A DNA stretch of 64,000 nt, taken from positions 1 to 64,000 of the forward strand of contig NZ_PVBR01000007.1 in NCBI RefSeq assembly GCF_002980495.1, written 5' to 3'. Positions 174 to 48,260 of this stretch are shown piece after piece. The translations under genes were made by a program, and so were the position numbers. Position 1 is the stretch's first letter. Every line of letters starts with the position of its first letter. The notes below the pieces were generated by a model that was not told where the DNA came from, ran no database searches, and saw nothing but the letters and a program-made list of their open reading frames with translations. Source of the DNA: Phyllobacterium phragmitis. Lineage in GTDB: Bacteria; Pseudomonadota; Alphaproteobacteria; Rhizobiales; Rhizobiaceae.

Positions 174-1331
174 CTATTCCCGCCGCGTCTTCGCGAAGCG
201 GTCCATGGCGGCGAAGGAGAAGGCGCTGATCGGCAGGGGCGTTGCGCCCTCCAATACCAGATCGGCGAGGATTTCACCGACGACGCTGGTAAATTTGAAG
301 CCGTGCCCCGAACAGGGCGACGCCACCACGATGCGCGGGTCGGACGGCAGGAGGTCGATGAGGAAATCCTCACTCGGCAGCATCGTATAGCGGCAGGTGA
401 TGGCATTGACGCGCAGGCCTGCTGCATCAGGAACACGGCGGGCGATGAAATCATCGAGCAGCGCCAGATCGGTGTCGTTCACCGGCGGATTGGGGCTATC
501 AGGATCGATCTCCTCGCGGAAATGCGCGTGTTTTCCGATCTTGACGCCATCCGGCCCGATGACGGGAAAGCCGAAGAAGGAACCGGCATCGCCCTCATCG
601 CGGATGAAGGCCGGCATGCGGCCAAGTGCCGTGGAAAAACCGTCGCGCGGCTGATACCACGCCACGACCTGGCGGATCGGCACGGCGAGCCCGCGCAATT
701 GCGGCACCAGCTCGGCAATCCATGGCCCAGTGGCCACCACCACCTTGCCGGCGCGGTAGCGCGCCGTATCGGTGACGATCTCGACATCGCTATCGCCGGG
801 TTCGATCGCCGTCACCTTCTCGCCGAAATGCAGAACGGCGCCGTCCGCCGCCGCAAGTCTCAGATAGCCGAAGACCGCAGCCTCCGGCTTCAGGAACCCG
901 CCCTCGGGATCGAGAACCGCAATGTCATCGGCATCCAGCGCAAAGGCGGGAAAGCGCCTCAGCATCATTTCCCGGTCGAGCACCTCGGAGGCAAGCCCAT
1001 GCAGTTTCGCTGAGGCGCGCGTTCCCTTGACGATCTTGTCGTCGGGGCGGCCGATCTGCAGCACGCCTGATATCGTCAGCACCTGCTCGCGCAGCCGTTG
1101 CTCCATCGAGCGCCAATTGGCGTAGGCGCTCTGCAGAAGCGGCACATAGGACGGATCCTCGAAATAGCCGAGCCGGATCAGCCTGGAATCACCATGCGAG
1201 GAGCCCAGCGCATGAGCGGGAAACGCCGCCTCGATGCCGATCACTTTGACGCCGCGGGCGGCGAGATGCGCGACCGCCGCGCTGCCCATGGCGCCAAGAC
1301 CGATGACGGCGACATCATATTGCGTGGACAT
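174..1331 (-). CDS. SolA/MSOX-type FAD-dependent amine (N-methyl amino acid) oxidase
   Basis: The 385-residue product matches monomeric sarcosine oxidase and N-methyltryptophan oxidase in length. Residues 11-16 form the dinucleotide-binding GxGxxG (GLGAMG), followed by a GSSHGDSR segment. Cys313 in CRYTMLPSEDF is where the family attaches FAD covalently. Such enzymes oxidise a secondary amine to an imine, releasing H2O2. The ATG at 1331 is preferred over the one at 1337 because a GGGGG run then has a 6-base spacer. It is the last gene of a leftward group with a HAL-like protein and an amino-acid transporter, so it probably acts on the imported compound. The substrate cannot be read from sequence. 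Confidence 0.8.
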   Translation of the reverse strand: MSTQYDVAVIGLGAMGSAAVAHLAARGVKVIGIEAAFPAHALGSSHGDSRLIRLGYFEDPSYVPLLQSAYANWRSMEQRLREQVLTISGVLQIGRPDDKIVKGTRASAKLHGLASEVLDREMMLRRFPAFALDADDIAVLDPEGGFLKPEAAVFGYLRLAAADGAVLHFGEKVTAIEPGDSDVEIVTDTARYRAGKVVVATGPWIAELVPQLRGLAVPIRQVVAWYQPRDGFSTALGRMPAFIRDEGDAGSFFGFPVIGPDGVKIGKHAHFREEIDPDSPNPPVNDTDLALLDDFIARRVPDAAGLRVNAITCRYTMLPSEDFLIDLLPSDPRIVVASPCSGHGFKFTSVVGEILADLVLEGATPLPISAFSFAAMDRFAKTRRE

Positions 1332-1362: not shown

Positions 1363-2859
1363 TCAATCAATGCGGGGCGCCGTAGTACTGGCCAGAAGGC
1401 CACGCGCCGCCGCCATATCCTTAGCCAGGGGCCGATCATCGGCATAGCGGGGCAGGATGTCGCGCAATGCCCGATACACCACATCGGTCCCTTCAGCGCG
1501 GGCGGCTTTCGCGGATTGAATATCCAGCGCCTGCGCCGCCGCCAGAAGCTCGATCGCGAAGATCTGCTCGGCATTGTCGAGCACGGCCAGAAGCTTCATC
1601 GCCGCGGCCGTCGGATGCGCCAGGAAATCCTCCTGCAAGGCGGAGGTGACGTCGCCATCGAGACTGGCGGGCGCGCCAAGGCGGCGGTTTTCGTTGCTGA
1701 GTGCGGCGGCCGTATATTGCGCGATCATGAAACCGGAGCCCGCGCCTGGATCATCGGCGAGGAAGGCCGGCAGGCCGCTCACCAGCGGATTGACCAGACG
1801 GTCGATGCGGCGCTCGCTCATGGCAGCGATCTGCGCGATAGCGACCGCCAGCATGTCGAGCCCCTGCGCGAGGGCGGGCCCAACGGCGTGAGCCTCAGAC
1901 CAGACCAGCGGCTCCTCCGGCGAGCCTGAAACGGCTGGATTGTCGGTGACGGAGGCAAGCTCGCGATTGACGACATCGGCTACGAAATCGAAGCCGTCAC
2001 GTGCGGCGCCGTGGGCATGCGGAATGGCGCGCAGGCTCAATGCATCCTGCGTCCGCGCCCCGGCATTGGCTGATATGAGCCGGCTTCCTTCGAGCCTTTC
2101 CCGCAATGCGCGGCCGACGGTTTCGATGCCCTTCGAGCGCCGGAGTGCAAGCACGCTCTCATCGAATGCCTGCATCTGCGCGCCGAGCGCTTCAAGCGTC
2201 AGCGCGGCGATGGCATCGGCCCATTCGAGCAGACGCTCAACACGGTGAAGCGCGACACAGCCAAGGCCTGTGGAACAGGACGTGCCGTTGACAAGGCTCA
2301 AGCCTTCCTTCGCCTCCAGCACGACCGGCGCAATGCCGATCTGCGCCAGGGCTTCGGCGCCGGTCACCTTGCGGCCCGCCAGATGCACCGTCCCCTCGCC
2401 GATCAGCACCAGCGCGATATGCGCCATATGCGTGAGATAGCCGGCGGAGCCTTTCGAGGGGACATCGGGAATGCAATCATGGTCGAGCAGCGCCAGCATC
2501 GCTTGTACGATTTCGGGCCGGACGCCGGAATGGCCATGGGCGAAATTGTTGATCTGGGCGGCGATGATGGCGCGCACCTCGCGCGGCGCAAGAAGGGGAC
2601 CGACGCCGCAGGCATGGCTCATCAGGATATTGCGCGACAGGCGGCGCTGCGACGCGCGGTCGACGACCGTATCGGCAAGCGCGCCGACGCCTGTGGTTAT
2701 TCCATAGGCGCGGACGCCGCTATTCACCAGCGCGGCGACGATGCGCGCGGCGTGACCTATCCTGTTCCAGGCATTGTCGCCAAGCTCCAGCCGGGCACCC
2801 TCGGCGATGCCGGCGGCTGAATGCCAATCGAGCGTCGTTTCAAGCATTATGGTGCGCAC
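1363..2859 (-). CDS. HAL/PAL-family aromatic amino acid lyase homologue lacking the MIO triad
   Basis: The 498-residue product is clearly of the histidine/phenylalanine ammonia-lyase fold. It keeps YGITTGVG at 52-59 with the catalytic Tyr52, the NGTSCSTG segment, TQDALSLR and the late SNENR segment. The loop that normally reads GSVG-ASG-DLAP reads GSAG-YLTH here (GSAG is residues 137-140), so the Ala-Ser-Gly that cyclises to the electrophilic MIO group is absent. The flanks VPSKGSAG and HIALVLIGEG align without any other gap. The GTG start is 2 bases after the ATPase stop and has GGGAG upstream. It is co-transcribed with a HisJQMP-like importer. It may be a non-MIO enzyme or may build MIO from another tripeptide. 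The family is certain, the reaction unknown. Confidence 0.85.
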   Translation of the reverse strand: MRTIMLETTLDWHSAAGIAEGARLELGDNAWNRIGHAARIVAALVNSGVRAYGITTGVGALADTVVDRASQRRLSRNILMSHACGVGPLLAPREVRAIIAAQINNFAHGHSGVRPEIVQAMLALLDHDCIPDVPSKGSAGYLTHMAHIALVLIGEGTVHLAGRKVTGAEALAQIGIAPVVLEAKEGLSLVNGTSCSTGLGCVALHRVERLLEWADAIAALTLEALGAQMQAFDESVLALRRSKGIETVGRALRERLEGSRLISANAGARTQDALSLRAIPHAHGAARDGFDFVADVVNRELASVTDNPAVSGSPEEPLVWSEAHAVGPALAQGLDMLAVAIAQIAAMSERRIDRLVNPLVSGLPAFLADDPGAGSGFMIAQYTAAALSNENRRLGAPASLDGDVTSALQEDFLAHPTAAAMKLLAVLDNAEQIFAIELLAAAQALDIQSAKAARAEGTDVVYRALRDILPRYADDRPLAKDMAAARGLLASTTAPRID

Positions 2860-2861
2860 TG

Positions 2862-3665
2862 TCAGCTCCCGAACGTGCCGATGAATTGCCGGAAGGCGGG
2901 TGAACCGCCTTTACCGAAAAGCTCTTCCGGCGCGCCGTCGCTGTCGATCTCGCCGGAGCGCATGAAGATGACGCGGTTGGAGACATTGCGGGCAAAGCTC
3001 ATCTCATGCGTAACCACCAGCATCGTCATGCCCTCTTCCGCCAGACTGCGCATGACGCGCAGAACCTCGCCGACGAGCTCGGGATCGAGCGCGGAGGTCG
3101 GCTCGTCGAACAGCATCACCTTCGGTTTCATCGCCAGGGCGCGGGCAATCGCGGCGCGCTGCTGCTGGCCGCCGGAGAGGTGGGCTGGATAGGCATGGCG
3201 CTTTTCGGCGATCCCGACCTTTTCAAGAAGCGCTTCTGCTTCGGCGATGCACTCGGCGCGCGGCCTTTTCAGCACATGCACCGGACCTTCGATGGCATTG
3301 TCGAGGATGGTCATGTGGGACCAGAGATTGAAGGACTGGAAGACCATGCCGAGCTCGGCCCGGATGCGATCGATCTGCTTTCGGCTGACCGGCATGTTGC
3401 GGCCGTTGCGCACCGTCATCTCGATGCGCTCGCCGTCGACGACGATCTCGCCCTGATCGGCGGTTTCGAGAAGATTGATGCAGCGCAGGAATGTCGATTT
3501 TCCCGAACCGCTGGCGCCGAGCAGCGAAATGACGTCGCCATCATGGGCATCGAGCGAAATGCCGCGCAGAACCTCATGCGCGCCGAAGCTCTTGTGGATG
3601 TTGCGGACGGATAGCCGGGTGGCCGCAGCCATGTTCCCCTCCATTGTGGTTTCTGGCGTCGTCAT
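2862..3665 (-). CDS. Polar amino acid ABC transporter ATP-binding protein (HisP-like)
   Basis: This 267-residue ATPase powers uptake by the two permeases encoded just upstream. Walker A (GASGSGKST) is at 50-58, followed by a Q-loop (VFQSFN), the signature LSGGQQQR, Walker [13 protein letters not shown] and the switch histidine in VVTHEM. It has the insert between Walker A and the Q-loop that is typical of HisP/AotP/OccP proteins. Its ATG overlaps the permease stop by 4 bases (ATGA), which fixes the start, although an inner ATG begins at the MAAATRL segment. The HAL-like gene follows after 2 bases. Confidence 0.95.
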
Positions 3666-4390
3666 CGGGATACCGGAAGGCCGCCGGGGACCAGAGATAC
3701 CGCAGCACGCCGGTGCGGTGAAAGGCGATGTTCGATAAGTGCCATCGCCTGCAGGATCAGGAAATTGAGCACGAGATAGATGATCGCCGCGCAGAGAAAC
3801 ACCTCCATCGTACGGTAGGTCTGCGCGATCAGCCGCTGCGCAACGCCGGTCACCTCCCAGACAGTGACGAGGCTCGCCAGCGCCGTGGATTTGACCATCA
3901 TCACGATCTCCGTCGAATAAGCCGGCAGGGCATGGCGGAAGGCGATGGGGGCGATGATGCGGCGCACCAGGAGAAAGCCGGACATGCCGATGGCGCGCGC
4001 CGCCTCGATTTCGCGCGGCTGAACGGCGCGCAGGCCGAAGCGGAAGATCTCAGCCGTATATCCCGCCGTGCAGAGCGCCAGCGACAGGACGGCGCAGACG
4101 AAGGGCTCGCGCAACGCCGGCCAAACGAAAGAGTGGCGGATGAAGCCGAACTGGCCGAGGCCGTAGAAGACGAGAAACATCTGGATGAGCAGCGGCGAGC
4201 CGCGGAAGATGAAGATATAGCCCCGCGCAAACCGGCTGAGGACGGGATTGCCGCCGACCCGCATCCAGACGATCAACAGGGCGAGCAGACCGCCGAACAG
4301 CACCGAGAGGGAAAACAAGGCAAGCGTCATCGGCAAGGCGGCGAGCAGCGTCTTCATGGTCTGGAACAGGAAAGGGAAATCCATCGCCAT
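3662..4390 (-). CDS. Polar amino acid ABC transporter permease (HisM-like)
   Basis: The 242-residue inner-membrane protein belongs to the HEQRo permease family (histidine, glutamate, glutamine, arginine, opines). It has about five hydrophobic segments and the EAA loop around [20 protein letters not shown] that docks on the ATPase. The segment [18 protein letters not shown] is a family hallmark. It starts 6 bases after the stop of the partner permease and overlaps the ATPase gene by 4 bases. Confidence 0.93.
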
Positions 4391-4396
4391 TCCTCC

Positions 4397-5119
4397 TTAT
4401 ATCTGGCCGATGCCGGCCGGCATGCTGCGGCTGGCGCGCCTCTCGGCGCTGGCAAACAGGCGGTCGGACATGCTGGTCAGGACCAGATAGAGACAGCCGC
4501 CGACGATGAAGAACAGGAAATATTGCCGTGTCGAGCCGGCGGCGACCTGGCTGGTGCGCATCAGATCGGCGAGGCCTGTGACGGAGACGAGTGCGGAATC
4601 CTTGAGGCTCAGCTGCCAGACATTGCCGATGCCGGGAAGGGCGAAGCGCAGAACCTGCGGCGCGATGATGCGCCGGAACCGCAACAGACGGTTCATGCCG
4701 ATCGCCTCGGCGGCTTCGAGCTCGCCCCTGGGAATCGCCAGGAAGGCACCGCGATAGACCTCGGCCTGATAGGCGCCGCAGATCAGACCTACGGCAAGGG
4801 CGCCGGCGATGAAGGTCGGAAGCCCGAGAAACCCGTCATAGCCGAAATAAGCGCCGATCATGGTGACGGCGCTGGAGCCGCCGAAATAGACGAGATAGAT
4901 GATCAGAAGCTCAGGCACGCCGCGAAAGATGGTGGTGTAGACGCCGCCGGCGGTTCTGATCGCCCGGCTCTGCGAAAGCTTGGCCGCGGCGACGACAGCC
5001 CCGAGCACGGCGCCGATCAGGAGCGCCGTGAGGGTGACGCACAGCGTCATCAAGGCAGCCATGAGGAGCAGCCCGCCCCAGCCGGTCTGCCCGAAACCGA
5101 GTGTCTCCACTATCTGCAT
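4397..5119 (-). CDS. Polar amino acid ABC transporter permease (HisQ-like)
   Basis: The 240-residue permease partners the HisM-like protein. It has several membrane spans, the family segment IFRGVPELLIIYLVYFGG and the EAA loop at GELEAAEAIGMNRLLRFRRI. It is separated from the upstream binding-protein gene by 117 bases that hold a strong hairpin (5201-5227). This suggests that the permeases are made in smaller amounts than the binding protein. Confidence 0.93.
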   Translation of the reverse strand: MQIVETLGFGQTGWGGLLLMAALMTLCVTLTALLIGAVLGAVVAAAKLSQSRAIRTAGGVYTTIFRGVPELLIIYLVYFGGSSAVTMIGAYFGYDGFLGLPTFIAGALAVGLICGAYQAEVYRGAFLAIPRGELEAAEAIGMNRLLRFRRIIAPQVLRFALPGIGNVWQLSLKDSALVSVTGLADLMRTSQVAAGSTRQYFLFFIVGGCLYLVLTSMSDRLFASAERRASRSMPAGIGQI

Positions 5120-5200
5120 ATCAATGTTCCCACACTATCGATTGGGGCCGGTCTCAGCAGACCGGAGCGGGACGCGAAAATTCCGCACGTCGAAAACGCG

Positions 5201-5227
5201 CCTTGGAGCGGCAAAACCGCTCCAAGG
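5201..5227 (-). terminator. Intra-operon hairpin between binding-protein and permease genes
   Basis: An 11-base perfect stem (CCTTGGAGCGG and its complement) closes a 5-base loop, 10 bases after the binding-protein stop codon. There is no long U tract, so it may be a partial terminator or a 3'-end stabiliser. Hairpins at this place are common in binding-protein-dependent operons, where they raise the amount of the periplasmic protein over the permeases. Confidence 0.6.
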
Positions 5228-5236
5228 CAAATCCGG

Positions 5237-6079
5237 TCAAGGCGTAACGTCCGTCTTGAACCATTTCATCGACAGATCCTTGACGATTCCGTCGGCAAGT
5301 GCGGCCTTGATGGCATCGTCGAGCATCGCCTTGAGTTCGGGATCGGACTTGCGCACGCCCAGCCCCTCGCCGATGCCGAAAATGGTGCCGCCGATTTCGG
5401 GGCCGCTGAAGGCGAGTTCGCCATCGGCCTTTTCGAAGGCCGAATTCAGATAGACCGCGTCGTCGAAGGCGAGATCGATGCGTCCCGTTTCCAGATCGAG
5501 GTCGCGTTCGGCGCCGGTCTTGTATTCACGCACCGTGGCGATATCGCCGAAATTGTCATAGATGAACTTGGAATAGACAGTCGCCGCCTGGATGCCGATG
5601 GTGGCGCCCTTGAAGGCGGTGCGCATGGCTTCGACGGCATCCTTGCCGCCATTCAGATCCGGCTCCATCTTGACGACGCTGCCCGTGCCAGGCGCATTGG
5701 CGTAGGAGCTTTCCTTCGATGCGGCGAAGACCGCATGGGTATGGGCGTAAGGGACCGAGAAGTCGATGATCTGCTTGCGTTCCTCGGTGATCGACAGCGC
5801 GTCCATGATGACATCGAACTTGCCGGCGTTGAGGCTGGTGATCATGCCGTCCCAGTCGGAGGCGACCAGCTTGCATTCCACCTTCATGTGGTCGCAGAGA
5901 TATTTCGCCAGTTCCGGCTCGAAACCGCCGAGCGAGCCGTCCGGATTGGTCATGTTCCACGGGGCATAGGCGCCTTCCAGCGTGATCGTCACGCTCTTCC
6001 ATTCCTTGGCCTGAGCCGGAGACCATGCACCGGCAGCAAGCGCGACAGCGCCGGCCAGCAGAATCTTATAAGCTTTCAT
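5237..6079 (-). CDS. Periplasmic amino acid/opine-binding protein (HisJ/OccT-like)
   Basis: The 280-residue product begins with a signal peptide (MKAYKILLAGAVALAAGA, probable cleavage after AQA). A type 3 solute-binding fold follows, with PWNMTNPDGSLGGFEPEL, DWDGMITSLNAGKFD and SITEERKQIIDFSVPY, the usual ligand-loop regions. It captures an amino acid, or an imino acid or opine derivative, for the permeases encoded next. The ATG at 6079 is chosen because GGAGAATATCG precedes it and the signal peptide begins there. It is the first gene of the leftward operon and lies divergent to hutC. Confidence 0.92.
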   Translation of the reverse strand: MKAYKILLAGAVALAAGAWSPAQAKEWKSVTITLEGAYAPWNMTNPDGSLGGFEPELAKYLCDHMKVECKLVASDWDGMITSLNAGKFDVIMDALSITEERKQIIDFSVPYAHTHAVFAASKESSYANAPGTGSVVKMEPDLNGGKDAVEAMRTAFKGATIGIQAATVYSKFIYDNFGDIATVREYKTGAERDLDLETGRIDLAFDDAVYLNSAFEKADGELAFSGPEIGGTIFGIGEGLGVRKSDPELKAMLDDAIKAALADGIVKDLSMKWFKTDVTP

Positions 6080-6426
6080 CGATATTCTCCTCTGGTGGTG
6101 TCGGAAACTGTTATTGACGTGCCGATCTGTGTCGGCTTGGCGAGAGCATGGCATGGCCATGATTAACGCGGATCGATATCGGGCTGGATCGTGAGCTATC
6201 GGCTAGACCAAGAAGCCAAATCCGGATCATTTCCCTATTGATGTTGTATATGGGACCATATGTCAATTACTATGGCATGCAAGCATAAAGTGTCGATTAC
6301 GTGCAGTTCCTACCGCTGCTTAAAATTAAGGCGGAGAGGGCGGACGCACATTGTTCGGCTTCAAAGACTGCCGGGTAGCCAAGTGGTTTAGGCGATTTCA
6401 ATGCGATCAGGAGGAGGATATCTTCA
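6080..6426. promoter_or_regulatory. Divergent control region between transporter operon and hutC
   Basis: This 347-base gap has no gene and must hold both promoters. An interrupted palindrome lies at 6248-6261 (ATATG-GGAC-CATAT), and the word GTTGTATATG at 6243-6252 recurs downstream of hutC at 7176-7185. HutC-type GntR proteins usually bind TGTATA-rich palindromes, so this is the best operator candidate. The hutC start is preceded by AGGAGGAGG (about 6410-6418). Confidence 0.45.
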
Positions 6427-7161
6427 ATGTCAAATGAACGGGCAAGCGAAAGCGCCCCGCTTTATGCCGGCGTGAAACAGATGATCCTCGACCGCATTCA
6501 CAGCGGCGAATGGCCTCCGAAACATCGCGTCCCCTCGGAAAACGAGCTCGTCGCGGAGCTGGGCGTCAGCAAGATGACCGCCAACCGGGCGCTGCGCGAA
6601 CTGGCGAGCGAGGGCGAACTCGTGCGCATCCAGGGCGTCGGTTCGTTCGTTGCCGAGCGCAAGGGCACTTCGGCGCTTTTCGAGGTCAGGAATATTGCAG
6701 ACGAAATCGCGGAAAGAGGCCATATTCACCTGGCTTTGGTGGTTTTTCTCAGGGAAGAGGACGCCTCCCCTGCCATTGCGGACGCGCTGGATCTGCCGAT
6801 CGGCGCAAGGGTCTTTCACTCGCTGATCGTCCATAGCGAGAACGGCGTTCCCGTGCAGATCGAGGATCGCCACGTCAATCCCGCGGCCGCGCCTGCCTAT
6901 CTCGAACAGGATTTCACCACCATTACACCCAATGCCTATCTGACGCGCGAGGCACCCTTGAGCGGGTCGGAGCACATCGTCGAAGCCACCATGCCGGAAC
7001 CCTGGGAATGCAAGCTGCTGGTCATCCTGCGCAACGAGCCATGCCTGACGATCCGCCGGCGCACATGGTCTTCGAAACAGGTGGTTTCGTTCGCCCGCCT
7101 CATCTATCCCGGCAATCGCTATCGGCTGGAAACACGCAGCGGCAAGGCCGTGGAAGAGTGA
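6427..7161 (+). CDS. hutC: GntR/HutC-family transcriptional regulator
   Basis: The 244-residue protein has an N-terminal winged helix (about 10-75, with LYAGVKQMIL, PSENELVAELGVSKMTANRA and the wing VRIQGVGSFVA) and a UTRA ligand-binding domain (about 95-235). It resembles histidine-utilisation repressors, which are released by urocanate. No hutU, hutG or hutI is nearby, so its inducer may be another product of the adjacent HAL-like enzyme. It faces the transporter/lyase/oxidase operon across a 347-base gap, as expected for a local repressor. Confidence 0.9.
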   Translation: MSNERASESAPLYAGVKQMILDRIHSGEWPPKHRVPSENELVAELGVSKMTANRALRELASEGELVRIQGVGSFVAERKGTSALFEVRNIADEIAERGHIHLALVVFLREEDASPAIADALDLPIGARVFHSLIVHSENGVPVQIEDRHVNPAAAPAYLEQDFTTITPNAYLTREAPLSGSEHIVEATMPEPWECKLLVILRNEPCLTIRRRTWSSKQVVSFARLIYPGNRYRLETRSGKAVEE

Positions 7162-7494: not shown

Positions 7495-9807
7495 TTGCTG
7501 ATATCTATTACTGCGCTTCTGTTTGCAGCCATTGCAATCGCCCTCGGTGTCGGCGGTGCATGGCTCGCTGCGCTTGGCGGAAGCTGGTATTATATCATCG
7601 CGGCTCTCGGCTTTCTTCTGACTGCGATATTCCTCTTCAAGCGGCGCCCCGCCGCACTATGGATCTATGCCCTCGTCATCCTCGGCTCGCTTGGCTGGGC
7701 GGTTTATGAAATCGGCTTCGACTGGTGGCAGTTGGGGACGCGTGGCGGCGTCATCGTGCTTCTCGGCCTGTGGCTTCTGGCCCCGTGGATATCGAGGAGG
7801 ACGGGCGGCGCCTTGCCCCTTGCCGTCGCCGTGCTGGCCTCGCTGGCCGTTGCCGGATATTCCATGCTCCAGGACCCGCACGATATCGCCGGTTCACTCC
7901 CGACGGAACAGGTGACCGCAAACCCGGATCTGGGAGGCAATATGCCGCCCGGCGACTGGCGCCAATATGGCCGCACGCCATATGGCCAGCGCTATTCGCC
8001 GCTTGATCAGATCACGCCGGAGAATGTCGGCAGCCTGCGGGTGGCATGGACCTACCAGACCGGCGATATCAAGCAGCCGGAGGATATCGGCGAAACCACC
8101 TACCAGGTTACACCTCTCAAGGTGCACGACACGCTCTATCTCTGTACGCCGCACAATTGGGCGATCGCCGTCGATGCGACGACCGGCAAGGAGAAATGGA
8201 AATACGATCCGAATGTCGGCTTCAACCCGGACCGCCAGCACCAGACCTGCCGTGGCGTTTCCTATTACGCCGATCCGGCGGCGCCTCCCGGCCAGGCCTG
8301 CGCCGAGCGCGTCTATCTGCCGACTTCCGATGCGCGGCTGATCGCGCTCGATGCGGCGAACGGCCAGATCTGCTCATCCTTCGCCGACAATGGCACGCTG
8401 CATCTCGAACAGGGGATGCCGTACAATCCGGCGGGCTACTATTACTCGACCTCGCCGCCGGTGGTGGCAGAGGGCAAGATCATCGTTGGCGGAGCCGTCA
8501 ACGACAATTATTCCATTCATCAGCAATCCGGGGTCATCCGCGCTTTCGACATCCATACAGGCGCGCTGATCTGGAACTGGGATTCGGGCAATCCGGACGA
8601 GACGACGCCGCTTCCGGATGGCCAGAAATACACCGTCAACTCGCCCAACAGCTGGTCGGTCTCGAGCGTGGATGAAAATCTCGGGCTGATCTATGTGCCG
8701 CTCGGCAACAGGGTGCCCGACCAGCTTGGCATGGGCCGTAGCGAGCATGTCGAGAAATATTCCTCCTCCATCGTGGCGCTAGATCTCAATACCGGACAGG
8801 TGCGCTGGGTTCACCAGACGGTGCATCATGACCTCTGGGACATGGATGTTCCAGCGCAGCCGGTTCTCGTTGACATCACCAAGGAGGACGGCGCCGTTGT
8901 TCCAGCGCTGGTCGGCCCGACCAAGCAGGGCGACATCTATGTGCTCGACCGGCGAACCGGCGAACCGATTATCCCGGTCGAGGAGGTGCCGGCTCCCAGC
9001 GGAGCGATACCGGAGGATTTCACCTCTCCGACGCAGCCCACCTCCGGCCTGACCTTCTCGCCGCCGCCACTGACCGAAAAGGACATGTGGGGCGTTACCA
9101 TGTTCGACCAGCTGATATGCCGGATCGAATTCCACAAGCTGAAATATGAAGGCCGCTATACGCCGCCCTCGCTGCAGGGAACGATCGTCTATCCCGGCAA
9201 TTTCGGCACCTTCAACTGGGGCAGCGTTGCGGTCGATCCGGTGCGGCAGGTGATGTTCGCCATGCCGACCTATCTTGCCTTTACCTCCAAGCTGGTGCCG
9301 CGCGCCGAGGTTCCGCCTCCCGGCGAAGGCACGAAAGGAAGCGAACAGGGGCTGAACCGCAATGAAGGCGCGCCCTATGCCGTGCTCCTCAATCCCTTCC
9401 TGTCGCCGCTCGGCATTCCCTGCCAGGCGCCGCCGTGGGGCTACGTCGCCGGGGCGAATCTGCGGACGGGCAAGATCGTCTACAAGCACAAGAACGGCAC
9501 TATCCGGGATATATCCCCGATACCGTTGCCGTTCGAGGTCGGCGTGCCCGGCATCGGCGGTCCGATGATCACGGCAGGCGGCGTCGCCTTCCTGGGGGCT
9601 GCAGTGGACGATTACTTCCGCGCCTATGATCTGACGACCGGCAAACAGCTATGGGAAGCACGCCTGCCGGCAGGCGGACAGGCCACGCCAATGAGCTATA
9701 CAACGGAAGACGGTCGCCAATTCGTCCTCATCGTGGCAGGCGGCCATGGCTCCGTCGGCACCAAGCCGGGTGACTATGTCATCGCGTATACGTTGCCGGA
9801 CAGCTGA
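7495..9807 (+). CDS. gcd: Membrane-bound PQQ-dependent glucose (aldose) dehydrogenase
   Basis: The 770-residue quinoprotein has about five N-terminal membrane spans (residues 1-125) and then a periplasmic eight-bladed propeller starting at NMPPGDWRQYGRTPYGQRYS. It matches the usual length of Gcd (about 780-800). It oxidises glucose, and often xylose or arabinose, to the lactone outside the membrane and passes electrons to ubiquinone. The tryptophan-docking repeats VDATTGKEKWKYDPN and ALDLNTGQVRWVHQT and the end GHGSVGTKPGDYVIAYTLP are typical. The start is TTG with AGGAGG 6 bases before it. No PQQ synthesis genes are in the window, so the cofactor must come from elsewhere. Confidence 0.94.
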   Translation: MLISITALLFAAIAIALGVGGAWLAALGGSWYYIIAALGFLLTAIFLFKRRPAALWIYALVILGSLGWAVYEIGFDWWQLGTRGGVIVLLGLWLLAPWISRRTGGALPLAVAVLASLAVAGYSMLQDPHDIAGSLPTEQVTANPDLGGNMPPGDWRQYGRTPYGQRYSPLDQITPENVGSLRVAWTYQTGDIKQPEDIGETTYQVTPLKVHDTLYLCTPHNWAIAVDATTGKEKWKYDPNVGFNPDRQHQTCRGVSYYADPAAPPGQACAERVYLPTSDARLIALDAANGQICSSFADNGTLHLEQGMPYNPAGYYYSTSPPVVAEGKIIVGGAVNDNYSIHQQSGVIRAFDIHTGALIWNWDSGNPDETTPLPDGQKYTVNSPNSWSVSSVDENLGLIYVPLGNRVPDQLGMGRSEHVEKYSSSIVALDLNTGQVRWVHQTVHHDLWDMDVPAQPVLVDITKEDGAVVPALVGPTKQGDIYVLDRRTGEPIIPVEEVPAPSGAIPEDFTSPTQPTSGLTFSPPPLTEKDMWGVTMFDQLICRIEFHKLKYEGRYTPPSLQGTIVYPGNFGTFNWGSVAVDPVRQVMFAMPTYLAFTSKLVPRAEVPPPGEGTKGSEQGLNRNEGAPYAVLLNPFLSPLGIPCQAPPWGYVAGANLRTGKIVYKHKNGTIRDISPIPLPFEVGVPGIGGPMITAGGVAFLGAAVDDYFRAYDLTTGKQLWEARLPAGGQATPMSYTTEDGRQFVLIVAGGHGSVGTKPGDYVIAYTLPDS

Positions 9808-13696: not shown

Positions 13697-14536
13697 ATGA
13701 CGAGAACACAGACCGCACGCTCCTTTTCCATATCGGCGATACCGATCTGCGTCACCATCGCCGGATCGGACAGCGGCGGCGGCGCCGGCATCCAGGCCGA
13801 CCTCAAGACCTTCTCCGCGCTCGGTGTCTATGGCGCGAGCATCATCACCGCGATCACCGCGCAGAACACGAAGGCGGTGACCGCCGTCCACGACATTCCG
13901 GCCGATATCGTCGCGGCGCAGATCGACGCCGTGTTCAACGATCTCGCCGTCGATGCCGTCAAGATCGGCATGCTCTCGATGCCGGAAACGATCGAGGCCG
14001 TGGCAGCCGGGCTTGCCGCCTTCGGCAAACCCATCGTGCTCGACCCTGTCATGGTGGCGAAATCCGGCGACAGGTTGCTCAGCCTGGATGCCGTATCCGC
14101 CTTGCGCGAAAAGCTTTTGCCCGGGGTGACGCTTCTGACGCCGAACCTGCCTGAAGCCGCCTCCCTGCTCGATAGCGATGTCGCGCGGACTGAAGCGCAA
14201 GCGGTGGAACAGGGCAAGGCGCTCCTGGCGCTGGGCGCCGGCGCGGTGCTGATGAAGGGCGGGCATGCAGATGGCGGGGAATGCGTCGATCTCCTGATCC
14301 GCGACGGCATGCCGCCGTTCAAGCTGACGGCGCCGCGCATCGCCACCCGCAACACGCATGGCACCGGCTGTACGCTTTCATCGGCCATTGCCGCCGGGCT
14401 GGCGAAAGGGCTGTCACTGGAGGAAGCCTTCGCCGCAGCCCATGCCTATCTACAGAGTGCGATCCTCGCCGCCGACCGTCTCAGCGTCGGATCGGGCAAT
14501 GGTCCCGTGCATCACTTTCACGCGATGTGGAGCTAG
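13697..14536 (+). CDS. thiD: Hydroxymethylpyrimidine (phosphate) kinase
   Basis: The 279-residue cytosolic kinase phosphorylates HMP and HMP-P to give HMP-PP, the pyrimidine half of thiamine. The N-terminal signature [19 protein letters not shown] and the ribokinase-type C-terminal motif [15 protein letters not shown] are present. The ATG at 13697 is chosen because the [14 protein letters not shown] core then lies near the N-terminus and a GGA sits upstream. It is the first gene after the TPP riboswitch. Length is close to the usual 266-280. Confidence 0.95.
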
Positions 14537-14541
14537 AGCCG

Positions 14542-15552
14542 ATGCGCATCACCATCATCGGCGCGGGCGTCGCGGGGCTGACATGCGCTATCGCATTTTC
14601 CGAACGAGGCTTCGACGTCACCGTCGTCGCGCGGAGCGAGCGCATCGGCGCCGACAGCTGCTCCTGGTATGCGGGCGGCATGCTGGCGCCGTGGTGCGAG
14701 GGCGAGAGCGCCGAGGAGCCGGTGGTTAGGCTCGGGCAACAGGCCCTCGACTGGTGGGAGAGCCATGTCGATTGCGTCGAGCGGGAGGGCACGCTCGTCC
14801 TCTCGCACACGCGCGACGCATCCGAGCTCATGCGCTTTTCCCGCCGCAGCAGCGCCTATGAAACCGTCGATGCCGGCCGGATCGAAGCGCTCGAACCCGA
14901 TTTGGCCGGCCGCTTCCGGCAAGGTCTTTTCTTTCCCGGCGAAGGCCATCTCGATCCGCGCAAGGCGCTTGAGCAGCTTGCCGAAACGCTTCGCCGCCGC
15001 GGCGTACGCCTGCAACTCGGCACGGACATGGACAAGGCAGCTATCCAGAGCGACTTCACCGTCGATTGCCGTGGCCGTGCAGCAAAGGATGCGCTCACCG
15101 ATTTGCGCGGCGTCAAGGGCGAGATGATTATCATTCGCTCGAACGAGGTGAACCTTAGTCGCCCGGTCCGCCTCCTGCATCCGCGCATCCCGCTCTATGT
15201 CGTGCCGCGCGGCGATGGCGTCTACATGGTCGGCGCGACGATGATCGAGAGCGATGCCGGCCGCCGCATCTCCGTGCGCTCGGTGCTGGAACTGCTGGGC
15301 GCGGCCTTTGCGCTCGATCCGGCCTTCGGCGAGGCGGAAATCCTGGAAACGGGCGTCGATGCCCGCCCGGCCTTTCCCGACAATCTGCCGCGCATCCGCA
15401 GGCGCGGCCAAACCCTCTATGTCAACGGGCTCTACCGTCACGGCTTCCTGCTTGCGCCAGCGCTCGCCCGCATGGCGATCGAAGCCGTGATCGATCCCAC
15501 CAAAACACCGGAGTTGATGGATGAAAATTATCCTGAACGGCAATCCGCATGA
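14542..15552 (+). CDS. thiO: Glycine oxidase ThiO
   Basis: The 336-residue FAD enzyme oxidises glycine to iminoglycine (dehydroglycine), which supplies C2 and N of the thiazole ring. An N-terminal dinucleotide motif (MRITIIGAGVAGLTCAIAF, GxGxxG at 7-12) and the C-terminal segment LYVNGLYRHGFLLAPALARM identify a DAAO-family ThiO. It starts 5 bases after the thiD stop, and its 3' end overlaps thiS by 32 bases, indicating translational coupling. Confidence 0.94.
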   Translation: MRITIIGAGVAGLTCAIAFSERGFDVTVVARSERIGADSCSWYAGGMLAPWCEGESAEEPVVRLGQQALDWWESHVDCVEREGTLVLSHTRDASELMRFSRRSSAYETVDAGRIEALEPDLAGRFRQGLFFPGEGHLDPRKALEQLAETLRRRGVRLQLGTDMDKAAIQSDFTVDCRGRAAKDALTDLRGVKGEMIIIRSNEVNLSRPVRLLHPRIPLYVVPRGDGVYMVGATMIESDAGRRISVRSVLELLGAAFALDPAFGEAEILETGVDARPAFPDNLPRIRRRGQTLYVNGLYRHGFLLAPALARMAIEAVIDPTKTPELMDENYPERQSA

Positions 15553-15718
15553 AACCCATGCCGCCACGCTCGCCGCAATTCTCGCCGAACTCGATTTCGC
15601 CGACGCCGTGATCGCCACCGCCGTCAACGGCACATTCGTGAGCGCACCTGAGCGCGCCGAAACCCCGCTTCGGGACGGCGATCAGGTGGAAATTCTCGCG
15701 CCCATGCAGGGAGGCTGA
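15521..15718 (+). CDS. thiS: Sulfur carrier protein ThiS
   Basis: The 65-residue ubiquitin-like protein ends in the required Gly-Gly (APMQGG). ThiF adenylates this end, which is then converted to the thiocarboxylate that donates sulfur to ThiG. It starts inside the thiO coding region (32-base overlap), and thiG begins 1 base after its stop. Confidence 0.95.
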
Positions 15719-15719
15719 C

Positions 15720-16490
15720 ATGCTGGAATTCTACAGCACGCCGATATCGAGCAGATTGCTGCTCGGTACCGCGCAATACCCCTCGCCCGCCATTCTTGCC
15801 GATGCGGTGCGCGCCTCCGGGACGGCGATCGTCACGGTATCGCTGCGGCGCGAATCCGGGCGGGATCGGGCGGGCCAGGATTTCTGGGCGCTGATCAAGG
15901 CGCTTGGGCTTCGCGTCCTGCCCAATACCGCCGGCTGCCATTCGGTGCGCGAGGCCGTCACCACGGCGCATATGGCGCGCGAAGTGTTCGGCACGCCGTG
16001 GATCAAGCTGGAGGTGATCGGCGAGCAGGACACACTACAGCCCGACATGTTCGGGCTGGTGGAGGCCGCGCGCATCCTCTCGAATGATGGTTTTGAGGTG
16101 TTTCCCTATATGACGGAGGATTTGGTCGTCGCCGAGCGGCTGGTCGAGGCAGGATGCAAGGTGCTGATGCCGTGGGGTGCGCCGATCGGCTCGGGCCGTG
16201 GGCTCAACAATGCCTATGGGCTGAAGACGCTTCGGGCGCATTTTCCCGACATTCCGCTGGTGATCGATGCGGGTATCGGCCTGCCATCCCATGCGGCGGA
16301 GGCGATGGAACTCGGCTATGACGCGGTGCTGCTCAACACGGGCGTCGCCAAGGCGGGTGATCCGGTAATGATGGCGCAGGCCTTTGCCAAGGCGGTGGAG
16401 GCCGGGCGCCTCGCATACGAGGCCGATCCGATCGAGGCGCGCGACATGGCCGCGCCATCGACGCCCCTCATGGGAAAGGCGTTTGTCTGA
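15720..16490 (+). CDS. thiG: Thiazole synthase ThiG
   Basis: The 256-residue TIM-barrel enzyme condenses deoxyxylulose phosphate, dehydroglycine and ThiS-thiocarboxylate to thiazole phosphate. The catalytic lysine lies in the segment WIKLEVIGE. The phosphate-binding loops [12 protein letters not shown] and [19 protein letters not shown] are intact. Its stop overlaps the ATG of thiE by 1 base. Length is the family's usual. Confidence 0.96.
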
Positions 16491-17098
16491 TGGCGCTCGA
16501 TCCGTTCTACCCGATCTTCGATTCCGCCGACTGGCTGGAACGGCTTCTGCCGCTTGGCATCAAGCTGGTGCAGCTGCGCATCAAGGACAGTGACGAGCAG
16601 GCGTTGCGCGCGGAAATCCGCCGCGCCCGCGATCTCTGCGCGCGGTATCGATGCCAGCTGATCGTCAACGACTATTGGCGGCTCGCCATCGAGGAAGGCT
16701 GCGACTTCATCCATCTCGGCCAGGAGGATCTGGACGTGGCCGATCTCAAAGCCATCGCCGAGGCGGGGTTGAAGCTCGGCATCAGCAGCCATGACGAAGC
16801 GGAACTCGACCGCGCCTTGGCCGCCAACCCTGATTATATCGCGCTCGGGCCGATCTATCCGACCATCCTCAAGAAGATGAAATGGGAGCAGCAGGGGCTG
16901 GAGCGGCTCACCGCATGGAAGGCGCGGATCGGCGACATCCCGCTCGTCGCGATCGGCGGAATGAGCGTCGAGCGTGCGCCCGGCGCGTTTGCTGCCGGCG
17001 CCGATATCGTTTCCGTGGTGACCGACATCACGCTCAACGCCGATCCGGAAGCCCGGGTGACGGAATGGATCGCGGCGACGCGAGGTCATATGCGATGA
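16490..17098 (+). CDS. thiE: Thiamine-phosphate synthase ThiE
   Basis: The 202-residue barrel enzyme joins HMP-PP to thiazole phosphate to make thiamine phosphate. The family stretches VQLRIKDSD, LIVNDYWRLA, FIHLGQEDL, YIALGPIYPT and the end VAIGGMSVERAPGAFAAGAD are visible. Thr residues common in the PTTTK-type loop are replaced here by PTILKKMKW, a variant seen in some Alphaproteobacteria. The stop overlaps the thiF ATG by 4 bases. Confidence 0.93.
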   Translation: MALDPFYPIFDSADWLERLLPLGIKLVQLRIKDSDEQALRAEIRRARDLCARYRCQLIVNDYWRLAIEEGCDFIHLGQEDLDVADLKAIAEAGLKLGISSHDEAELDRALAANPDYIALGPIYPTILKKMKWEQQGLERLTAWKARIGDIPLVAIGGMSVERAPGAFAAGADIVSVVTDITLNADPEARVTEWIAATRGHMR

Positions 17099-18072
17099 AC
17101 CGTTATGCGCGTCAGGAAATCCTTCCCGAAGTCGGCGGGCAGGGTCAGGAAAAGCTGCGGCGGGCGCATGTGCTCATCGTCGGCGCTGGCGGTCTCGGCT
17201 GTCCGGCGCTGCAATATCTGGTCGGCGCCGGCATCGGCAGGATCACGCTCATCGATCCTGACAGCGTCGATCGCAGCAATCTGCATCGCCAGCCGCTCTA
17301 TGGCGAAAGGAGCCTCGGCCAGCCGAAGGTGTTGGCCGCGCGCGATGCCTTGCGCGATCTCAATCCGGAAACGGAGATCATACCCGTCGTCGCCGCGCTC
17401 GATCCGGCCAATGCGACAACGCCGGTCGGGCAAGCCGATATTGCGATGGACTGCGCCGACAGCTTCGCCGCGAGCTATATCCTGTCCGATATCTGCCATG
17501 GGCTCGGCAAGCCTTTGATCTCGGCCTCGGCCCTCGGTCTTTCCGGCTATGTCGGCGGCTTTTGCGGCGGTGCGCCGTCGCTGCGGGCGGTCTTCCCGGA
17601 TTTGCCGAAGACGCTTGCCACCTGCGCGACCGCCGGGGTGCTCGGCCCTGTCGTTGGGACACTTGGCGTGTTGCAGGCGCAGATGGTGCTCGGTGTCCTA
17701 CTCGGCTTCGAGCCGTCGCCGCTCGGCAATATGGTGTCCGTCGATCTCAAGCGCTTTTCGTTCCGCAGCTTCCGCTTCGATCATGCGCCGGAGCCTGAGC
17801 GCATCCCCTTCCCGTTCATCGCGCCCGCCGGGCTTAGAGAGGATGATCTTCTGGTCGAGCTGCGCGGGGCCGACGAAGCGCCGCAAGCGCTTCGCACCGA
17901 CGCGATGCGCGCCATAGTCGATGAATTTCAGGCCGCAAGCATCGTCCCGCCCGAGGGCCGCCGCGTGGTGATGTGCTGCCGCAGCGGACTTCGCGCATGG
18001 CGGGCCGCCTCCGCCCTGCAACGCTACTGGCCGGGCGACATCGCCCTGATCGCCGCCGGCGATTCCAATTGA
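17095..18072 (+). CDS. thiF: ThiF/MoeB-family E1-like adenylyltransferase with C-terminal rhodanese-like tail
   Basis: The 325-residue protein adenylates the ThiS C-terminus. The nucleotide-binding GAGGLG is at 30-35, followed by DSVDRSNLHRQ. The first zinc CxxC of MoeB/ThiF is replaced by GAPSLRAVF, although CATAGVLGPVVGTLG is kept, so zinc binding is probably lost. The last 60 residues end in CCRSGLRAW (Cys295), the rhodanese active-site pattern, which suggests that sulfur carrying and adenylation are fused. The start overlaps thiE by ATGA. Confidence 0.9.
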   Translation: MNRYARQEILPEVGGQGQEKLRRAHVLIVGAGGLGCPALQYLVGAGIGRITLIDPDSVDRSNLHRQPLYGERSLGQPKVLAARDALRDLNPETEIIPVVAALDPANATTPVGQADIAMDCADSFAASYILSDICHGLGKPLISASALGLSGYVGGFCGGAPSLRAVFPDLPKTLATCATAGVLGPVVGTLGVLQAQMVLGVLLGFEPSPLGNMVSVDLKRFSFRSFRFDHAPEPERIPFPFIAPAGLREDDLLVELRGADEAPQALRTDAMRAIVDEFQAASIVPPEGRRVVMCCRSGLRAWRAASALQRYWPGDIALIAAGDSN

Positions 18073-18106
18073 CCATTTTCCTTTTTCCAACCGGAGGAGA
18101 TACCCC

Positions 18107-19069
18107 GTGAAATTCCGACGTTTCCTGCTCGCGCTCCTGGCGACCTTGCCATTGGCGGCAACACCGGCACTGGCCGCCGACAAGCTTTCGCTCATTCTCG
18201 ACTGGTATGTGAACCCGGACCACGGGCCGATCGTCATCGCCAAAGAGAAGGGCTTTTTCCGTGACGAAGGCCTTGACGTGGACATCATCGCGCCGGCCGA
18301 TCCTTCCGCGCCGCCGAAGCTTGTGGCGGCAGGACAGGCGGATATCGCCGTCTCCTATCAGCAGCAGATCCATCTTCAGGCGCATGAGGGCCTGCCCTTG
18401 CTGCGGGTCGGCACGCTGATCAGCTCGCCGCTCAACTGCCTGCTGACGCTTGCCGACGGGCCGGTGAAATCGATCGCCGACCTCAAGGGCAAGAAGGTCG
18501 GCTTTTCGGTCGCAGGCGTCGAGGAATCGATCCTCCAGACCATTCTCACCAAGAACGGCCTGAAGATGAGCGACGTGGAACTCATCAACGTCAACTGGTC
18601 GCTCGCGCCTTCGCTGATGTCGAAGCAGGTCGATGCCGTCATCGGCGCCTACCGCAATGTCGAACTGAACCAGATGGCGGTCGAGGGCGTGAAGGGCCGC
18701 TGCTTCTTCGTCGAGGAGGAAGGCGTGCCGCCCTATGACGAATTGATCTATGTCGCCAATGCCAAGACCATGGACAAGGGCAAGATCTCGCGCTTCCTCG
18801 CCGCCACGGAGAAGGCGACGCAGTTCATCCTGAACCATCCGCAGGAGAGCTACGAGATCTATGCCTCTACGGCCAAGGAGCTGCAGGACGAGGCCAACAA
18901 GCGCGCCTGGTTCGACACGCTGCCGCGCTTCGCGCTCAGGCCCGCCGCCCTCGATATCGGGCGCTACCGGCGCTACGAAGCCTTCCTTAGGGAACACGGT
19001 CTCGTGCCGGCCCTCCTGCCCGTCAACAAGATCGCCATCGACGTGAATGCAGAGGAGCCGGCACAATGA
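18107..19069 (+). CDS. thiY: Pyrimidine-precursor (FAMP/HMP) ABC transporter substrate-binding protein
   Basis: The 320-residue NMT1/THI5-like periplasmic protein has a signal peptide ending near ALAADK. It has the NMT1 core: LILDWYVNPDHGPIVIAKEKGFF, with VGTLISSPLNCLL and GVPPYDELIYVAN later on. ThiY binds formylaminopyrimidine, a thiamine breakdown product, for import. A 34-base gap with GGAGG separates it from thiF, and its last codons overlap tenA by 4 bases. Its place between biosynthesis and tenA supports a pyrimidine-salvage role. Confidence 0.93.
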   Translation: MKFRRFLLALLATLPLAATPALAADKLSLILDWYVNPDHGPIVIAKEKGFFRDEGLDVDIIAPADPSAPPKLVAAGQADIAVSYQQQIHLQAHEGLPLLRVGTLISSPLNCLLTLADGPVKSIADLKGKKVGFSVAGVEESILQTILTKNGLKMSDVELINVNWSLAPSLMSKQVDAVIGAYRNVELNQMAVEGVKGRCFFVEEEGVPPYDELIYVANAKTMDKGKISRFLAATEKATQFILNHPQESYEIYASTAKELQDEANKRAWFDTLPRFALRPAALDIGRYRRYEAFLREHGLVPALLPVNKIAIDVNAEEPAQ

Positions 19070-47484: not shown

Positions 47485-48113
47485 GCCATTCCATGCCGAC
47501 GCTCGACGATATCCATCGCTATCTCTACGGAAGCTGGCGCATGATGCGCGGCCGGCCGGATGGTCTTGTCCATCTCGACATATCGGCGGAGGGATTCTGG
47601 CAGTCCTTTTATGCGATGCTGGTCGCGGTACCGCCGCTTTTCGCCGGATGGGTCGCCTATGCCGCCGATCTCGCCAGGGGCGATGACGAGGCCGCCCTGC
47701 GGCTCAGCATCGTGCTGCGCACCGCGACCGTCGATATGATCTCCTGGGTGCTGCCGATCGTGGCGATCGGCCTTCTCGCCAAGCGCATCGGCATCTCGCG
47801 GCGCTTCGCGCCCTACGTCATCGCGTCCAACTGGGGAACGGCACTGATCGCCTGGCTGTTCGTTCCCGTGACGCTGCTGCGGCTGTTCTTCCCGATGTCG
47901 AACGAAATCATGGCGCTGATCTCGATCATGCTGTTCGGCGTGTCGATCGTTTTTTCCTACCGCCTGACGCAGGTGGCACTGCAAAGGCCGCATGCCTTCG
48001 CGCTGCCCTTCTATGCCGTGCTTTTCATCGGATCGATCTTCATCACCATCATGCTCCAGCACCTGCTCGGCATCGATTATCCCGCCGCCGCCGACAGTAC
48101 ATTGTTGCATTAG
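47481..48113 (+). CDS. Uncharacterised multi-span membrane protein downstream of dapE
   Basis: The 210-residue product has about five membrane spans (for instance YAMLVAVPPLFAGWVAYA, VLPIVAIGLLAKRIGI and YAVLFIGSIFITIMLQHL). I do not recognise a family beyond a general resemblance to YIP1-like or transporter-component proteins. A GTG at 47481 overlaps the dapE stop (GTGA). ATG at 47493 gives 206 residues. Its coupling to dapE does not reveal its role. Confidence 0.75.
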   Translation: MSHSMPTLDDIHRYLYGSWRMMRGRPDGLVHLDISAEGFWQSFYAMLVAVPPLFAGWVAYAADLARGDDEAALRLSIVLRTATVDMISWVLPIVAIGLLAKRIGISRRFAPYVIASNWGTALIAWLFVPVTLLRLFFPMSNEIMALISIMLFGVSIVFSYRLTQVALQRPHAFALPFYAVLFIGSIFITIMLQHLLGIDYPAAADSTLLH

Positions 48114-48150
48114 TCTGTCAGGGCTAGCTTGAAAATAGCCTCCCCCTCGC

Positions 48151-48260
48151 CGTCATTCTCGGGCTTGTCCCGAGAATCTACGACCTATGGCCTGTCAGGA
48201 CGGTAATCACTTTTCTTCTTCTTCTTATGGCAGATTCTCGGGACAAGCCCGAGAATGACG
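48151..48260. repeat. Paired-palindrome intergenic repeat, class B (copy 2, inverted)
   Basis: The 110 bases have the same ends as the copy at 39335-39442 (CGTCATTCTCGGGCTTGTCC and its inverse). The interior is the reverse complement of that copy (CTACGACC...CTTCTTATGGCAGATT), so the element is in opposite orientation relative to the map. Confidence 0.85.

Follow-up and report, generated by a model that had tools for sequence, protein, structure and literature searches.

The window analysed here, a 64,000-nucleotide stretch of Phyllobacterium phragmitis DNA, carries an operon-borne lyase of the histidine ammonia-lyase (HAL) fold that lacks the Ala-Ser-Gly triad of MIO enzymes, and we propose with moderate confidence that this protein is a MIO-free, hut-linked trimethylamine lyase, whose likeliest substrate is hercynine (histidine betaine) and whose product would be urocanate. 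The loss of the triad is well supported by the sequence, and from it we infer that the folded protein contains no MIO. We likewise infer what the lyase acts on, which reaction it catalyses and how the importer and the oxidase encoded alongside contribute.

The match of the lyase to the aromatic amino acid lyase superfamily (PF00221, gathering score 27.3) spans profile positions 5–465 of 466 and places the protein in this superfamily (Table 1). It falls below the cut-off of the HutH equivalog family TIGR01225, against which the canonical HutH of the same genome (L081), serving as control, scores 732.7 bits. L081 is the second HAL of this genome; its cofactor site reads GSVGASGD, and it shares 38% identity with the window protein. 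As judged from its sequence, the lyase gene is under purifying selection and is neither the product of a base error nor a decaying gene. Specifically, dN/dS against three relatives is about 0.15–0.19, namely 0.15 (L001, 0.083/0.555), 0.19 (L002, 0.085/0.453) and 0.17 (L003, 0.200/1.189).

Table 1. Features of the lyase operon and its surroundings in the window, with strand and basis of assignment.
Feature	Position	Strand	Basis
FAD amine oxidase, SoxA / N-methyltryptophan oxidase type	174..1331	-	PRK11259 415.7 bits > cut-off 257
MIO-less HAL-family lyase, 498 aa, GTG start	1363..2859	-	PF00221 494.4 bits, residues 14-466; TIGR01225 hutH 470.8 bits, cut-off 539.15
Gly137-Ser138-Ala139-Gly140 of shortened MIO segment; three canonical residues missing alongside	2440..2451	-	alignment
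ABC importer ATPase, HisP-like; ends 2 bases before lyase start	2862..3665	-	profile matches
ABC permease, ArtM/HisM-like	3662..4390	-	profile matches
ABC permease, HisQ-like	4397..5119	-	profile matches
Solute-binding protein, SBP_bac_3 family	5237..6160	-	PF00497; TIGR01096 218.1 bits, under cut-off 256.35
Imperfect dyad between hutC and operon, possible operator (weak)	6243..6266	.	pattern scan
HutC-type repressor, divergent from operon	6427..7161	+	TIGR02018 300.8 bits > cut-off 220

The initial annotation had described a clean three-residue loss of the MIO triad at 2440–2451, and this description is exact: in place of the canonical HAL segment KGSVGASGDLAP, the protein has KGSAG---YLTH, and the three residues missing at the MIO site are the sole gap in the alignment with P. 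putida HAL within residues 20–257. Directly after Gly140, the chain continues with Tyr141-Leu-Thr-His-Met-Ala-His. The same shape, Gly-Ser-(Ala or Val)-Gly-Tyr with three residues missing and without ASG, is found in 80/80 relatives (Ala in 72, Val in 8), which were taken from among the matches listed (61–86% identity; more exist) and comprise 76 Rhizobiales, two Thalassospira, one Azospirillum and one Nitrospirillum. Neither the window protein nor any listed relative thus carries, at this site, the triad that marks MIO enzymes (HAL, PAL, TAL and aminomutases); known variants of the triad occur at its first residue. A standard Ala-Ser-Gly elsewhere in the chain, which would have undermined the initial description, was searched for by sequence across the whole window protein and is not present. 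The letters ASG do occur in 10 of the 80 listed relatives, scattered over seven different places and never at the MIO site, and a displaced triad is rejected as a source of MIO. Ser-Gly pairs are conserved in the clade at residues 111–112 (80/80 listed relatives) and 375–376 (78/80), and P. putida HAL has Ser-Gly at the matching places as well. Because the deletion is common to all 80 listed relatives and dN/dS is low, a sequencing error in the nine bases concerned, also raised initially, and a pseudogene are both ruled out.

Seven active-site residues are retained throughout. Residues are numbered here as in P. putida HAL, and their roles are partly general background and partly taken from PMC11432326; the motif-column alignment covers frames of at least 380 aa. 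Tyr53, His83, Asn195, Gln277, Arg283, Met382 and Glu414 are kept in 80/80 listed relatives, and the YGITTG loop occupies residues 52–57 of the window protein, bearing out the earlier statement that this loop and other active-site stretches remain. Tyr280, present in all 45 MIO-type proteins compared (rows of which two are gapped at positions 53 and 83 and one, L091, has Gln at 414), is replaced by Leu in 80/80 listed relatives, Phe329 is replaced by Ala (75) or Pro (5), and Asp145 is lost. At the Phe329 and His330 positions the clade is unlike both HAL and ergothionase, and at position 386 it has Tyr (80/80 listed relatives) where ergothionase has Lys; both points count against the proposed reading. 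Histidine recognition has been ascribed to an SH motif and a conserved Met (PMC11432326, section 3.1), the latter presumably P. putida Met382, and the Ser-His pair is invariant in the 27-row alignment A2.

Leu280 is not confined to the window clade. It is also present in the ergothionase of T. denticola (6S7J), in 11/11 MIO-less proteins of annotated plasmid records (the clade member L083, L084–L090, L092, L094 and L095), in L098, L099, L156, L159 and L165, and, by direct reading, in L097, whose site is GSVGYLTH and which has QDPLS. The MIO-less Leu280 proteins show at least four site shapes (Y---, AA-D or QA-D, E-GD and DN---), so a single deletion does not account for Leu280 going together with MIO loss. 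Between the options left by the initial annotation, the Tyr280-to-Leu replacement shared with MIO-less ergothionase speaks for cofactor-free chemistry, and the formation of MIO from residues shifted by three is disfavoured, as discussed below.

The window protein as modelled with AlphaFold2 (27 rows; mean pLDDT 82.9) has a pLDDT below 50 at residues 51–60, 356–375 and 399–413, including the Tyr53 loop, and the active-site loop is judged from sequence and secondary structure only; in the predicted model, a helix begins at residue 141. HAL 1B8F is the best Foldseek match of the model, and 6S7J is matched with a TM-score of 0.86 at 29% identity. Additionally, VIA-align superposes the model on 6S7J with a Z of 38.8 (rmsd 3.0 over 482 residues) and on Thermoplasma HAL with a Z of 40.8 (rmsd 2.6 over 470 residues).

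In one of the two mechanisms considered for this family, the primary amine of the substrate adds to MIO and thereby becomes a good leaving group. A Friedel-Crafts mechanism is given as the alternative in PMC11432326. For a quaternary ammonium substrate, MIO would be unnecessary, because the nitrogen of such a substrate, lacking a lone pair, cannot add to MIO and leaves readily without such help. We propose that the lyase builds no MIO and would eliminate a tertiary amine from such a substrate by plain acid/base catalysis, converting hercynine (N-alpha-trimethyl-histidine) into trimethylamine and urocanate, which would pass into the Hut pathway. Specifically, the shortened loop, together with the replacement of Tyr280 by Leu and of Phe329 by Ala, may free space for the methyl groups at the former MIO position, whereas Tyr53 would take the beta proton, Arg283 would hold the carboxylate, and His83, Met382 and Glu414 would hold the unmodified imidazole. 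An unmodified imidazole is expected because the imidazole-side residues are those of HAL, unlike those of ergothionase at 382 and 386. Methylated histidines would enter through the importer, HutC would regulate the operon, and histidines with fewer N-methyl groups could be demethylated by the SoxA-like oxidase. A literature search of partial coverage, and hence weak as evidence of absence, found neither a hercynine lyase nor the window clade described, and the passages on ergothionase in one review mention no hercynine lyase.

The placement of the lyase between an ABC importer (2862–6160) and a DAO/SoxA-type flavin oxidase (about 174–1331), as stated initially, is borne out, and the operon runs in the order binding protein, two permeases, ATPase, lyase and SoxA-type oxidase. 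The start of the oxidase is placed at MSTQYDVAVIG, within an open frame that runs to 1574. Three HutC-type repressors exceed the TIGR02018 cut-off in this genome (C7, C11 and C15), the one of the window included; that on C15 lies at 47545–48219. The dyad between hutC and the operon is found with a strict pattern in the window and in one of the 80 listed loci (L001), and with a looser pattern in the window, L001 and L002, being absent from 10 other loci inspected. A scan of the window for a HutC-like operator core gave 19 matches, with 12.6 expected by chance; the stretch from hutC to the operon holds none of them. The gene adjoining hutC (7495–9807) is PQQ-dependent dehydrogenase-like, and thiamine synthesis/salvage-like genes, encoding a DAO-family oxidase, ThiF and an NMT1/THI5-like protein, lie at 14281–19066.

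Across the clade, the neighbourhood was surveyed in 80 listed loci with 8 kb flanks where the contig allows, nine of which end at a contig edge. HutC-like genes are found at 68 loci, SBP_bac_3 at 54, SoxA-type oxidases at 35, HutI at 24, HutF at 23, HutU at 22, HutG at 14 and OpuAC (betaine-type) at 8. The corresponding counts around canonical HutH in 20 of these genomes, picked where HutH lies away from the lyase, are HutI 20, HutU 17, HutF 17, HutC 17, HutG 15, SBP_bac_3 4, SoxA 1 and OpuAC 0, and in 20 other genomes of the class they are HutU 17, HutI 14, HutC 11, HutF 11, HutG 7, OpuAC 1, SBP_bac_3 0 and SoxA 0. Five of these 40 control stretches end at a contig edge, and the search models were built from MIO-less loci and may favour matches there. 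Two features of the survey count against the hercynine reading: none of the sought neighbours is found at 11 of the 80 listed loci (Mesorhizobium, Aminobacter and one Rhizobiales), and the window, like the 54 loci with SBP_bac_3, has a polar amino-acid type importer, against 8 of 80 loci with OpuAC.

On the other hand, OpuAC proteins are present at six of the seven more distant MIO-less loci scanned for a binding protein (L084, L085, L087, L088, L092 and L094), and one lies near the clade member L016. In S. meliloti Ak57 (L087), hutC, hutF and an importer of glycine-betaine type (OpuAC 210.2 bits) precede the lyase, and in Aureimonas AU20 (L088), the lyase lies among hutC, hutF, hutI, hutG, hutU and hutD, adjoined by an OpuAC importer. 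The exceptions, SBP_bac_3 at L086 and MFS transporters at L090, speak against a link with betaine import. Because OpuAC-type histidine transporters exist, the OpuAC link is not specific to betaines and constitutes support rather than proof. A betaine transporter is therefore not accepted as proof of the substrate, given OpuAC near only 8 of the 80 listed loci and an importer of amino-acid type in the window.

The same MIO-free mechanism could instead serve a different substrate, a possibility that we regard as tentative; candidates are ergothioneine, its sulfonate, N,N-dimethylhistidine or some other betaine or histidine derivative. This possibility draws on the A. tumefaciens lyase L084 (54% identity), which has Gln instead of Met at position 382 and comes after a betaine-type importer. 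Genes for a molybdopterin S/N-oxide reductase and a urocanate hydratase stand upstream, and the set could be an ergothioneine-sulfonate cluster. In the window clade, however, the Met382 of HAL and the Tyr at the place of the ergothionase Lys386 are each kept in 80/80 listed relatives, and profile searches detect neither a molybdopterin reductase nor a urocanate hydratase in the window operon.

In a further, unlikely reading, ammonia or a simple methylamine would leave a protonated-amine substrate without help from an electrophilic cofactor, the MIO chemistry being replaced by acid/base catalysis of the fumarase/aspartase type; Tyr141 and His144, both invariant and now located where MIO used to be, would participate. 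The related idea that ammonia is removed without MIO from free or ring-methylated histidine, as aspartase does with aspartate, is quite improbable. The residues on the imidazole and carboxylate sides are indeed those of HAL, the fumarase/aspartase chains align with the model at Z 12–14, a level of which about 13 can be reached by helical bundles without kinship, and at L088 a MIO-less gene occupies the hutH position of a hut gene set. On the other hand, a Ser-to-Ala change that removes MIO from a PAL causes a practically total loss of activity (PMC3903478), and all 40 genomes examined already hold a HutH-like match.

Specifically, a HutH-like match other than the clade member is present in 40/40 genomes, those of 40 loci hand-picked from the 80 listed, with 53–93% identity to the HutH of the window genome. 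ASG is present in 20/20 of the matches fetched (of 40); the match in G147 covers residues 149–485 only, and those of G144, G151, G168, G173 and G178 have stop codons in the aligned stretch. Additionally, another, HutH-type frame lies within the flank at 23 of the 80 listed loci. Given this coexistence in the 40 genomes, replacement of HutH by the lyase is rejected, and the lyase seems to open a further route into the hut pathway instead of substituting for HutH.

The same coexistence, including the HutH-type frames in the flanks, would also be expected of a catalytically dead paralogue that senses a ligand or partners canonical HutH as a subunit, a reading to which we give little credence. Against it stand the seven active-site residues invariant in 80/80 listed relatives, the purifying selection on the lyase, the presence at most loci of an own importer and a HutC-like gene, and the catabolic look of the window operon. 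Least probable is a MIO still formed from Gly-Ser-Ala shifted by three residues: Ser138 (139 in P. putida numbering) is invariant in 80/80 listed relatives, but Gly138-Ser139 (P. putida) lies upstream of ASG in 45/45 MIO-type proteins and Ser139 is also present in 6S7J, which marks the pair as scaffold, the third residue is Ala or Val where 45/45 MIO-type proteins have Gly, Asp145 is absent and Phe329 replaced in 80/80 listed relatives, and the alternative frame Ser-Ala-Gly has no central Ser.

A careful tree of 42 rows, with the MIO columns and site 280 left out and L091 not included, groups the ergothionase family (6S7J, L089, L095, L156, L159 and L165) at 100/100 support, on a branch separate from that of the window clade, which the MIO-less Priestia and Klebsiella/Rhizobium types join at 87/70 only. 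On this tree the MIO label has to change twice (a single change suffices in 2% of 200 bootstrap trees), whereas a quick tree of 66 rows requires one change. Haloarcula L092, Pseudoalteromonas L091, 6S7J and L095 form long branches whose placement is unsure.

Further MIO-less types were observed alongside. Rhizobia carry a second MIO-less HAL family (L089, 5917–7422; L156, 2942–4819; L159, 477–2027; L165, 8656–10302) with GS(I/V)GAA-DLAP and the ergothionase-type Lys at 386; L089 has ergothionase 6S7J as its best match among solved structures and ABC genes annotated glycine/betaine nearby. The proteins of a Klebsiella plasmid hut cluster (L085, 7932–9464) and of a Rhizobium plasmid (L094, 4923–6473) read GSVGY---LIAT, and OpuAC binding proteins adjoin both. 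On a Haloarcula plasmid, L092 (3998–5479; GSADN---ACELA), a further type with a very long branch in the careful tree, lies beside hutU with an OpuAC protein near, and on a Priestia plasmid, L090 (5920–7458; GSLGY---LNHQA), annotated hutH, lies in the same gene run as hutU and hutI. The hut locus L204 encodes, within the same 17 kb, a canonical HutH as well as another HAL-family frame, which lacks ASG and has QDPLS.

If the proposal of a MIO-free trimethylamine lyase is true, it extends MIO-free catalysis in the HAL fold beyond ergothionase, adds a new entry into histidine utilisation, from histidine betaine to urocanate and trimethylamine, and yields a sequence rule for misnamed HutH proteins, namely no ASG together with Leu at HAL position 280. 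The clade is large and cannot consist of normal MIO enzymes, and it is named hutH or histidine ammonia-lyase in the annotated plasmid records inspected. Because the same genomes hold both a MIO-type enzyme and a MIO-free paralogue, when the HAL fold needs MIO is directly testable.

Loss of MIO in the HAL fold is already known from ergothionase, which, according to PMC13405746 (citing Maurer et al. 2019), is structurally similar to HAL, PAL and TAL, lacks the MIO cofactor and converts ergothioneine into trimethylamine and thiourocanic acid. The window protein resembles the Treponema denticola enzyme (6S7J/6S7Q) in its HAL fold, as seen in the model, in the predicted absence of MIO, as suggested by the missing triad and as reported for ergothionase, in Leu at the place of Tyr280, and in Tyr53, His83, Gln277, Arg283 and Glu414, which are kept in both. 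It differs in that the MIO segment of ergothionase (RSSIGEGDITTLSH, with RSSIGEGDIT) is one residue shorter than the canonical segment rather than three, in the Gly at 382 and Ser at 195 of ergothionase, and in the separate tree branch described above. Additionally, ergothionase has at aligned position 386 a Lys, which we take to be catalytic and which is shared by 6S7J, L089, L156, L159 and L165 (Ala in L095). Closer to the window protein, the A. tumefaciens plasmid lyase L084 has the same three-residue deletion (GSVGY---LTH), Leu280 and Ala329, but Gln382 and Leu386, and its cluster differs in the betaine-type importer and in extra oxidoreductase and hydrolase genes. Canonical HutH (P. putida 1B8F and L081 of the same genome) shares with the window protein the fold, a similar length, the link to hut genes and the residues on the imidazole and carboxylate sides, whereas the window protein is distinguished by the lack of ASG and Asp145 and by the replacement of Tyr280 by Leu and of Phe329 by Ala.
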